Of a stretch of 22,369 bases of DNA, positions 1,453 to 20,453 are shown piece by piece. The DNA comes from a virus. The stretch covers positions 1 to 22,369 of the IMG/VR virus record IMGVR_UViG_3300025872_002554; one strand, written 5' to 3'. Made by a program: the position numbers and the translations under genes. How positions within the stretch are numbered: the stretch's first letter is position 1; each line of letters begins with the position of its first letter. The notes under the pieces were generated by a model. It was given only the letters and a program-made list of their open reading frames with translations. It did not search any database and was not told the origin of the DNA.

Positions 1453-1481
1453 ATTATATAGCAAAAATAAAGAGGGGTCAA
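1453..1481 (-). promoter_or_regulatory. Sigma70-type promoter for the hli-petF transcript
   Basis: TTGACC (1476-1481) and TATAAT (1453-1458) are separated by exactly 17 bases on the minus strand. The -35 box occupies the loop and one arm of the terminator hairpin at 1470-1490, and the T-rich tail of that terminator forms the spacer. The expected start point is near 1446, about 20 bases before the hli ATG. This is the type of promoter read by host RNA polymerase early in infection. Confidence 0.75.
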
Positions 1482-1490
1482 GCCCCTCTT
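1462..1490 (-). terminator. Rho-independent terminator after the secreted-protein gene
   Basis: On the minus strand an 8-bp perfect stem (AAGAGGGG with CCCCTCTT, arms 1483-1490 and 1470-1477) closes a 5-base loop and is followed by TATTTTT. It lies about 60 bases after the stop of the barrel-like gene and should end transcripts from it and any read-through from the glycan operon. Confidence 0.85.
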
Positions 1491-17015: not shown

Positions 17016-17024
17016 ATTATACCA
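17016..17024 (-). promoter_or_regulatory. Possible internal promoter (extended -10) before GME-like gene
   Basis: TGGTATAAT on the minus strand is a full extended -10 (TGnTATAAT); its TAA is the fcl stop codon. There is no good -35 box. It lies in one of the few gaps in the operon and would start transcripts just before the AGGAGA ribosome binding site, so the start point may be very close to it. Confidence 0.4.
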
Positions 17025-17931
17025 TATTCAGACAATACCAGTCATAAGTTTTCTTAAGACCTTCTTCAAGAGATATCTTTGGTTCCCATCCAAGTTCTTT
17101 AATTTTATCAACGTTTAGAACTTTGCGAAGAGTTCCATTTGGGGCATCAGTATTCCATTTGATTTCTCCAGTAAATCCAACAACTTTAGAAATCATCTGT
17201 GCTAACTCCTTGATCGTAATGTCTTCACCGACACCAACATTGATGTGAGAAGATTGGTCATACTTTTTCATACAAACATAACAAGCCTCTGCTAGATCAT
17301 CGGCGTGAAGAAATTCTCTTCTAGGAGAACCATCACCCCACAAAGTTACTTCCCCACCCTCATGAAGTTTACGAATTAAAGCAGGTAAAACATGACAAGT
17401 TTCTAAATCAAAACTATCATTAATACCATATAGATTACAAGGCATTACGCTAATAGCGTTAAACCCATACTGCTCTCTGTATGATTGGCACATCTTAATA
17501 CCAGCAATCTTAGCAATAGCATAAGCATCATTTGTTGGTTCAAGTGGTCCAGAAAGTAGAGATGATTCTAAAATTGGAACTTCAGCAAACTTAGGGTAGA
17601 TACAAGAAGAACCAAGAAAGAGAAGTTTCTTAACTCCAGTTTGATAAGCAGAATCTATGATGTTTGATTGAATCATCAAATTATCATAGATCATTTCTGC
17701 TTTATGATTCTTATTTCCTAGAATCCCACCAACTTTTGCGGCGGCAAGGAAAACATATTGTGGTTCTTCTGAAAGAAAATATCTTATAGTTTCATCTTGA
17801 TTAGTAAAGTCAACATCATTACGAGTTCCTTTAATAATATTTGTATACCCCTTTTCTTCAAGGTTTCTTACTATTGCTGATCCAACCATTCCGTTAGCAC
17901 CAGCAACTAAAATTTTAGATTGCTTGTTCAT
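17017..17931 (-). CDS. fcl: GDP-L-fucose synthase
   Basis: This 304-residue protein has the NADP-binding [16 protein letters not shown] (residues 7-22), [10 protein letters not shown] (61-70), GSSCIYPK (107-114) and the catalytic Tyr137-x-x-x-Lys141 in YAIAK. These correspond to the Ser/Cys/Tyr/Lys set of E. coli GDP-fucose synthase (321 residues). MPCNLYG and [19 protein letters not shown] complete the family signature. The enzyme epimerises C3 and C5 and reduces C4 of GDP-4-keto-6-deoxy-mannose, the product of gmd directly upstream. The ATG at 17931 overlaps gmd by 17 bases; a longer frame needs a non-ATG start. Its product feeds the GT11 genes. Confidence 0.94.
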
Positions 17932-18925
17932 TTTTACACATATCCTCAACTAGTTTCTCAAAAGAAGTTTTTGGTTCCCACCCCAACTGAAGTTTCGCTT
18001 TTGTATAATCCCCAAGAAGAGAATCTACTTCTGCTGGACGGAAGTATTTTGGATCAACCATTATACGAACTAACCCAGTATTTGTATCAATTCCAACTTC
18101 AGTTCCATCAACAGTAAACTGCCACTCAATATTCATTCCAAAGTAAGGTGCTGCTGCCTCAACAAACTCACGAACTGAATATTGTTTTCCTGTAGCAATC
18201 ACAAAGTCATCAGGTTCTTCCTGCTGTAGCATCATCCACATTGCTTCAACATAATCTTTAGCGTGTCCCCAGTCACGTTTGGCATCAAGATTGCCCAACT
18301 TAAGAACAGTCTGCTTACCTTCAGACATTGCCTTAAGACCTCTTGTAATCTTCCTTGTTACAAATGTTTCGCCACGTCTGGGAGATTCATGATTAAAAAG
18401 AATGCCAGTACAAGCATACATTCCATATGCTTCTCTATAATTTTTGGTGATCCAGTATGCGTAAATCTTTGCTACACCATAAGGAGAGCGGGGATAAAAA
18501 GGAGTAGTTTCACGCTGAGGAGTTTCTTGAACAAGACCGTAAAGTTCACTTGTAGAGGCTTGGTAAATGCGGACACGATCTTCCATACCCAAGAGGCGCA
18601 CTGCTTCAAGAACACGGAGAGTTCCCATACCATCCACATCAGCAGTGTATTCAGGCATCTCAAAGGATACTTTGACATGACTTTGAGCACCAAGATTATA
18701 AATCTCATCAGGTTGAACTTTTTGAATAACTCTGACTATATTAGTAGAATCTGTTAAGTCTCCGTAATGTAACTTAATATTTTGAAATATATGATCAATG
18801 CGATGAGTATTAATCATAGAAGAACGACGGACAATACCATGAACTTCATATCCTCTTTCCAATAGAAATTCAGCAAGATATGAACCATCTTGTCCTGTAA
18901 TGCCCGTAATTAAAGCAACTTTCAT
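17915..18925 (-). CDS. gmd: GDP-mannose 4,6-dehydratase
   Basis: The N-terminus [33 protein letters not shown] (residues 4-36) is the highly conserved GMD start, with the TGxxGxxG NAD(P) loop. QASTSELYG (122-130) supplies Thr125 and Glu127, and [12 protein letters not shown] supplies Tyr149 and Lys153. [18 protein letters not shown] is also diagnostic. At 336 residues it is a little shorter than E. coli Gmd (373). It converts GDP-D-mannose to GDP-4-keto-6-deoxy-D-mannose. It is the first gene of the 17-kb glycan operon, starting about 20 bases after a -10 element; its ribosome binding site is weak. The ATG is favoured over a TTG two codons upstream. Confidence 0.96.
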
Positions 18926-18943
18926 ACACAATTATTTTTTTCT

Positions 18944-18972
18944 ATTATAATAAAAAAGGTAGGTTTATGCAA
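18944..18972 (-). promoter_or_regulatory. Promoter of the glycan operon
   Basis: TATAAT (18944-18949) lies 17 bases after TTGCAT (18967-18972) on the minus strand. The -35 box is weak (three of six) and sits in the loop of the terminator hairpin. The predicted start point is about 10-12 bases before the gmd ATG. The same arrangement occurs at 1453-1490. Confidence 0.6.
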
Positions 18973-18981
18973 CCTACCTTT
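18951..18981 (-). terminator. Rho-independent terminator upstream of gmd
   Basis: An 11-bp perfect stem (AAAGGTAGGTT with AACCTACCTTT, arms 18971-18981 and 18955-18965) with a 5-base loop is followed on the minus strand by a run of T. The stop codon of the 39-residue gene is inside the stem. It separates the tRNA/small-gene block from the glycan operon. Confidence 0.88.
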
Positions 18982-19093
18982 GATTATTCAGGCTCGCCAC
19001 CAATTCTTTGACTGGAAATTGGAAACCAGGCGGGAGAGAGTCCCATCCGCACCACTTGCTCTTGAGAGAAGCAAGAAACTCATAAGGGGTCAT
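18974..19093 (-). CDS. Small hypothetical protein (39 aa)
   Basis: An ATG at 19093 preceded by the purine-rich GGTGGTGGAG, four bases away, opens a 39-codon frame ending in a TAG within the terminator stem. The product MTPYEFLASLKSKWCGWDSL.. has aromatic residues and a PPGFQFPVKELV segment; no membrane span. The strong ribosome binding site and exact fit between the 77-residue gene and the terminator support it as a real gene. Family and function are unknown to me. Confidence 0.65.
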   Translation of the reverse strand: MTPYEFLASLKSKWCGWDSLPPGFQFPVKELVASLNNQR

Positions 19094-19105
19094 TTGACTC
19101 CACCA

Positions 19106-19125
19106 CCTAGTTTGTCTGAACTAGG
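19106..19125 (-). repeat. 7-bp inverted repeat at a gene end
   Basis: CCTAGTT and AACTAGG pair across a 6-base loop; the TAG stop of the 77-residue gene is in the stem. No T-run follows, so it is probably not a terminator. It lies just before the ribosome binding site of the 39-residue gene and could affect its translation or RNA stability. Confidence 0.4.
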
Positions 19126-19340
19126 AAAAGTTGGACTAGTTTTGGTATTTCAATAGCGGCATAAAAACCACATAAGAAAAGAATATCCCAAAACTTATAT
19201 TTGATAGCAAAGGGAACAACAAAGATATTCCCAATACATTTTACAAATAGTCCGATTTTCATATCTCCCCATAAAAGAAAAAAGTATCCTGATAAGAGGA
19301 GAAGATTTCCAATGTATCTGAATACATTAGATTTTGCCAT
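19107..19340 (-). CDS. Small multi-span membrane protein (77 aa)
   Basis: The 77-residue product is strongly hydrophobic, with segments at about residues 9-25 (YIGNLLLLSGYFFLLWG), 29-45 (IGLFVKCIGNIFVVPFA) and 50-70 (WDILFLCGFYAAIEIPKLVQL), separated by short charged loops. Two to three membrane helices are likely. GGGAG lies 11 bases before the ATG. I do not recognise the family. Small membrane proteins of this kind are common in the accessory regions of T4-like phages; the function may be in host membrane takeover, but this is a guess. Confidence 0.7.
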   Translation of the reverse strand: MAKSNVFRYIGNLLLLSGYFFLLWGDMKIGLFVKCIGNIFVVPFAIKYKFWDILFLCGFYAAIEIPKLVQLFLVQTN

Positions 19341-19389: not shown

Positions 19390-19638
19390 TTAATCATCCT
19401 TTACATAAGCAGGAACTCTATCAGGATCCAACCAACATGTATAATCATAATCTTCCATAGCAGTCATTAACTGCATTTCATTATCACAAAGATACATGTC
19501 ACGATATCTACCAGTATATGAATCTACCTTTTGAATTCTACAATCAGGTTTTCCATTAATTTCCAAGGTGCCAACTTGAACATAACGATAAGGAAACCGT
19601 TCCATAAGAACGGCTGGTTTCCTGATTACTTTCATCAT
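19390..19638 (-). CDS. Hypothetical protein (82 aa)
   Basis: The product has 82 residues with a basic N-terminus (MMKVIRKPAVLMERFPYRYVQVG), beta-like middle (EINGKPDCRIQKVDSYTGRYRDMYLCDNE) and acidic C-terminus (CWLDPDRVPAYVKDD). No membrane segment is visible. It overlaps the 71-residue gene by ATGA and has GAGG four bases upstream, so the two are translated together. I do not recognise the family. Translation could also begin at the second Met. Confidence 0.7.
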   Translation of the reverse strand: MMKVIRKPAVLMERFPYRYVQVGTLEINGKPDCRIQKVDSYTGRYRDMYLCDNEMQLMTAMEDYDYTCWLDPDRVPAYVKDD

Positions 19639-19872: not shown

Positions 19873-19901
19873 ATTATAAGGTTTTGACTTATGAAAGTCA
19901 A
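19873..19901 (-). promoter_or_regulatory. Sigma70-type promoter for the 71/82/77-residue genes
   Basis: TTGACT (19896-19901) and TATAAT (19873-19878) are separated by exactly 17 bases on the minus strand. The -35 box begins three bases after an 8-bp hairpin that follows tRNA-Met. The predicted start point is near 19866. Confidence 0.75.
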
Positions 19902-20424: not shown

Positions 20425-20453
20425 ATTATACTACTTCTTGTGGTGCTTGTCAA
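20425..20453 (-). promoter_or_regulatory. Consensus sigma70 promoter of the tRNA/antitoxin block
   Basis: TTGACA (20448-20453) and TATAAT (20425-20430) are both perfect and 17 bases apart on the minus strand. The -35 box is within the last codons of the 50-residue gene and the -10 box abuts its TAG stop. The start point should be near 20418, about 11 bases before tRNA-Pro. Confidence 0.85.

Follow-up and report, generated by a model that had tools for sequence, protein, structure and literature searches.

Ahead of the glycan operon of a T4-like cyanophage lie 38 bp that read both as an intrinsic terminator and as a promoter. Is this overlap a working boundary between two transcription units, a part of the RNA element beside it, or an accident of tightly packed genes? 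The window analyzed here, a whole virus record of 22,369 bases, has the Synechococcus phages DSL-LC03, S-SKS1, and S-SRM01 as its nearest records. On its minus strand AAAGGTAGGTTGCATAAACCTACCTTTTTTATTATAATAG was found, which consists of a stem, the loop GCATA, a T-run, and TATAAT. Read 5' to 3', the terminator is AAAGGTAGGTT-GCATA-AACCTACCTTT (18981-18955; 11 pairs, loop of 5, -14.5 kcal/mol), followed by TTTAT and then by TATAAT at 18949-18944. TTGCAT (18972-18967) begins with the final two bases of the 5' arm and continues over four bases of the loop, and the spacer from there to TATAAT is exactly 17 nt, made of the 3' arm plus the T-run. The first-pass annotation had described this arrangement (an 11-bp terminator stem with TTGCAT in loop and arm, then 17 bases including the T-run, then TATAAT) and had placed it before a glycan operon; all of these parts were found, with gmd and a GDP-L-fucose synthase-like gene downstream. 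It recognized the composite but overlooked the wcaG RNA that directly adjoins it. The features concerned are the following.

1453..1490, minus strand: sister composite ahead of an Hli gene, a terminator containing TTGACC-17-TATAAT
17017..17949, minus strand: GDP-L-fucose synthase-like gene, second in the glycan operon
17915..18925, minus strand: gmd, GDP-mannose 4,6-dehydratase, first gene past the promoter, ATG at 18925
18944..18949, minus strand: TATAAT, predicted -10 element
18950..18966, minus strand: 17-nt spacer, terminator 3' arm plus T-run
18955..18981, minus strand: predicted intrinsic terminator hairpin, 11-bp stem, loop GCATA, covariation in homologs
18967..18972, minus strand: TTGCAT within the hairpin at the -35 position, a weak match (3/6); homologs have TTGACA or TTTACA
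18986..19083, minus strand: wcaG RNA (RF01761; Rfam, 104.9 bits), same strand as the composite
19086..19104, minus strand: small conserved hairpin GGTGGAGTCAAATGACCCC (GGTGGAGTCA..TGACCCC), immediately 5' of the wcaG model
19107..19340, minus strand: 77-aa gene upstream of the wcaG RNA

The wcaG RNA is full length (model positions 1-98 of 98, cut-off 42 bits) and its 3' end lies 4 nt ahead of the terminator stem. A 36-aa frame within 18987-19094 was rejected as a gene because it is this RNA. The small hairpin at 19086-19104 was found in 68/102 wcaG loci among the matches listed, and given its presence the Rfam wcaG model may be too short. Among 84,980 bacterial and archaeal genomes the wcaG core was found in one contig (NZVE01000057.1, a Rhodobacteraceae MAG), which may be a misbinned piece of a cyanophage. 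The STnc390 sRNA (RF02056) was rejected as an identity for the composite, as it scored 29.3 bits against a cut-off of 50 and the match covers a generic terminator.

TTGCAT agrees with the TTGACA consensus at 3/6 positions and is thus a weak -35, there is no extended -10 at the site, and our promoter scan passed over it because at least 4/6 matches were needed in the -35. In the genomes scanned below, TTGCAT 17 nt before TATAAT occurs elsewhere 3 times against 1.4 expected, which is no enrichment, so the promoter may be weak or may need help. From the position of the -10 element, transcription would start near 18937. A late promoter of the published motif NATAAATA (PMC2984593) was also considered, but the site reads TATAATAG and does not match.

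We compared wcaG loci using the RNA core as query in IMG/VR, with neither terminator nor promoter in the query. This gave at least 120 stretches, which together with loci from earlier searches and isolates yielded at least 104 distinct wcaG downstream regions, all with RNA cores resembling that of the window. Among the matches listed, a terminator lies within 60 nt past the RNA in 96/104 distinct regions, a -10 is present in 93 of those 96, and one of TTGCAT, TTTACA, or TTGACA stands exactly 17 nt ahead of the -10 in 77 (54, 14, and 9 regions, respectively). An exact TATAAT at the fixed distance accompanies TTGCAT in 52 of the 54 TTGCAT loci listed. The listed matches contain 71 different hairpins behind the RNA; in 21 distinct aligned stems all eight inner pairs are kept, and six of these eight pairs show pair changes. 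The stems therefore co-vary and the hexamers and spacing stay constant, and so constraint acts on the hairpin as well as on the promoter letters. Information content peaks over TTGCAT, the T-run, and TATAAT and drops within about 15 nt beyond TATAAT. As judged from these alignments, the composite at 18944-18981 is real, recurrent, and constrained. A protein operator overlying the -35 was rejected, because the stems vary by compensatory pairs with no single sequence kept.

These comparisons bear on whether there is a promoter at all. TATAAT could simply result from the AT-richness of the tail, with TTGCAT being a favored hairpin loop, as the weak -35, the missing extended -10, and the lack of general use of TTGCAT as a -35 in these phages would suggest. 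This seems most improbable given the exact TATAAT at a fixed distance in 52 of 54 listed TTGCAT loci and the TTGACA or TTTACA at the equivalent position in other phages, and no alternative promoter is found upstream of the wcaG RNA. Among the matches listed, a promoter of this kind lies downstream of the RNA in 76/101 loci and in the 300 nt upstream of it in 0/101.

The same count weighs on a second possibility, that the terminator serves a wcaG riboswitch as its expression platform, the RNA gating read-through from upstream and TATAAT being a secondary promoter that bypasses the switch. The wcaG RNA has been classed as a likely cis-regulator, and likely a riboswitch, of exopolysaccharide genes (Weinberg 2010, PMC2864571), and here the terminator follows it by a few nucleotides before an operon of gmd and fucose synthase. 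The locus thus resembles terminator-gated riboswitch leaders, in which a structured RNA and then an intrinsic terminator precede a metabolic operon, but unlike them it has a promoter past the RNA and shows no indication of a competing antiterminator. Antiterminator pairing between RNA and terminator gave no signal in the 71 loci among the matches listed, because the terminator arms pair as well with swapped wcaG RNAs as with the locus's own. Moreover, the predicted fold separates the hairpin from the RNA, and in Syn9 a TTGACA-17-TATAAT promoter likewise lies between the wcaG RNA and hli. We consider this reading unlikely. Against the boundary reading given below, the composite is absent at the tRNA-adjacent wcaG RNAs of S-PM2, S-RIM8, S-IOM18, S-CAM1, and DSL-LC02. 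These tRNA-adjacent RNAs have no glycan genes beside them, and some have a hairpin directly before the tRNA.

The first-pass annotation had also proposed a recurring boundary element that would show up as an excess of terminators with TATAAT close behind over shuffled sequence. Terminators of -8 kcal/mol or better were called in 10 cyanomyovirus genomes and, for comparison, in RB49 and T4. In the 10 cyanomyovirus genomes an exact TATAAT lies 0-14 nt past the stem at 43 of 579 terminators, whereas 200 dinucleotide shuffles gave 6.7 ± 2.4 with a maximum of 14, a clear excess that bears out the proposal of a recurring element at module borders. In the windows 15-29 and 30-44 nt past the stem of these genomes TATAAT is at background. 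TTG and TTGACA-like hexamers in the cyanophage composites peak 16-17 nt ahead of the -10. For strong promoters with a terminator stem ending no more than 60 nt upstream of the -10, the nearest stem end is 0-15 nt away in 14/17 cyanophage cases but 35-54 nt away in 5/5 RB49 cases; within this sample, nesting characterizes the cyanophages and RB49 has the tandem order. At two RB49 promoters of consensus sequence (115005-115033 and 121708-121736, minus strand) the 17 nt between -35 and -10 form an inverted repeat, GGGGRTC...GATCCCC, which is yet another way of combining hairpin and promoter.

Could compaction alone account for the composite, terminator and promoter overlapping by accident in short gaps without serving as a seam? 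Intergenic gaps in the window are short, the predicted gmd mRNA leader is only about 12 nt, and the composite before hli never departs from its gene. The exact 17-nt register and the co-varying stems in 71 distinct hairpins among the matches listed would not be expected from this, RB49 keeps terminator and promoter 35-54 nt apart, and gene swaps fall exactly behind the element. Compaction as the sole explanation is thus quite unlikely.

The swaps were seen on comparing the neighbors. Upstream, two families cover 67/102 wcaG loci among the matches listed, and the window has a member of each (19107-19340 and 19390-19638); the family of the 77-aa gene is the commonest upstream neighbor of this wcaG RNA type (44/102, same matches). 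Past the promoter the listed matches carry 15 unlinked families, with sugar epimerases clustered together as one family, including nucleotide-sugar epimerases, a cytidylyltransferase-like protein, and glycosyltransferases, all named by sequence resemblance. One locus, L016, differs from the window by a single base from inside the wcaG RNA through TATAATA, yet has a cytidylyltransferase-like gene where the window has gmd and its own gmd two genes later. The likeness at the element is by selection, because hairpin and promoter were the query in that case; the change of gene is not. The best reading of these sequences is that the element marks a constant seam at which cyanophages would swap surface-sugar genes. 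The suggestion that the composite moves with gene cassettes holds only in part: the hli composite stays with hli in 59/59 copies, and the wcaG composite is mostly kept with its upstream neighbors, with changing glycan genes behind it, as in L016.

Promoter-early stem-loops (PeSLs) reportedly combine an effective terminator stem-loop with a strong sigma70-like early promoter at the borders of exchanged genes, and recombination between copies is said to cause the exchange. They are described for T4-like phages (Arbiol 2010; Comeau 2014; both as cited in PMC4503421), and they are reported not to be dense in the S-PM2 region studied in PMC4503421, which counts against a PeSL reading here. Cyanomyoviruses have no counterparts of the T4 genes that redirect the host polymerase to early promoters, and their early genes are presumed to rely on host sigma70 (PMC2984593). 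Our composite resembles PeSLs in joining a terminator stem-loop to a sigma70-type promoter between exchangeable genes of T4-like phages. Kyanoviridae and related T4-like cyanophages are the nearest records to the window, the predicted terminator has the sequence traits of a terminator (-14.5 kcal/mol, T-run, covariation), the predicted promoter has an exact TATAAT at 17-nt spacing with a weak 3/6 -35 here and TTGACA or TTTACA in other members, and the border is one where downstream families vary and L016 shows a swap. It differs in that the -35 lies within the hairpin and the T-run within the spacer (0-15 nt), the RB49 promoters lying entirely past their terminators (35-54 nt), and in that the composite is also tied to the wcaG RNA. 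We regard the element as quite probably a boundary of the PeSL type in which terminator and promoter are nested. Composites of this kind are not new, since PeSLs have been described for T4-like phages; the nested geometry and the link to the wcaG RNA appear to be.

For such a nested boundary we infer the following course. Transcription from the upstream genes would pass through the 77-aa gene and then the wcaG RNA before stopping at the hairpin, and a host-sigma70-type promoter with its -35 in the hairpin and the T-run in its spacer would start transcription of the glycan operon about 12 nt ahead of gmd. Sharing the DNA would insulate the two units and keep both signals within 38 bp, and different glycan cassettes would be exchanged behind a constant seam. 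This would be a compact off and on signal in one stretch, kept across many cyanophages under coupled constraints, as the stem must pair and TTG...TATAAT must hold 17 nt.

The wcaG RNA itself matches the published family as a full-length cyanophage member upstream of exopolysaccharide genes, but here a terminator and promoter lie between RNA and gene, so the gene's main transcript should be free of the RNA: with a start near 18937 and a leader of about 12 nt to the ATG at 18925, the main gmd message would not contain it. This implies that the wcaG RNA would usually lie before, not inside, the message supposedly under its control, and the promoter position sits badly with the published view of a 5'-leader switch, which it would call into question. 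Tentatively, and with somewhat less than even confidence, we suggest that the RNA is not a 5'-leader riboswitch of the downstream genes. It would instead form the structured 3' end of the upstream transcript, coupled to a terminator that also serves as the next promoter, or it would gate read-through and be bypassed by the nested promoter. Its function is directly testable because the promoter is on the wrong side for a simple 5'-leader switch in about three-quarters of the loci among the matches listed.

The sister composite at 1453-1490, which the first-pass annotation took to have the same geometry, shares the 17-nt spacing but not the placement of the hairpin: the stem end lies 12 nt from the -10 there and 5 nt at 18944-18981. 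Its promoter is stronger, matching the consensus at 11/12 positions. The TTGACT-17-TATAAT promoter at 19873-19901 (minus strand) also has its -35 inside a hairpin, which makes three such cases; its AT-rich hairpin, TTGACTT-TCAT-AAGTCAA, has no T-run. At 20425-20453 (minus strand) a perfect 12/12 sigma70-type promoter, TTGACA-17-TATAAT, stands without a terminator ahead of a small gene, and the matching region of DSL-LC03 carries an annotated 'prevent host death' gene.
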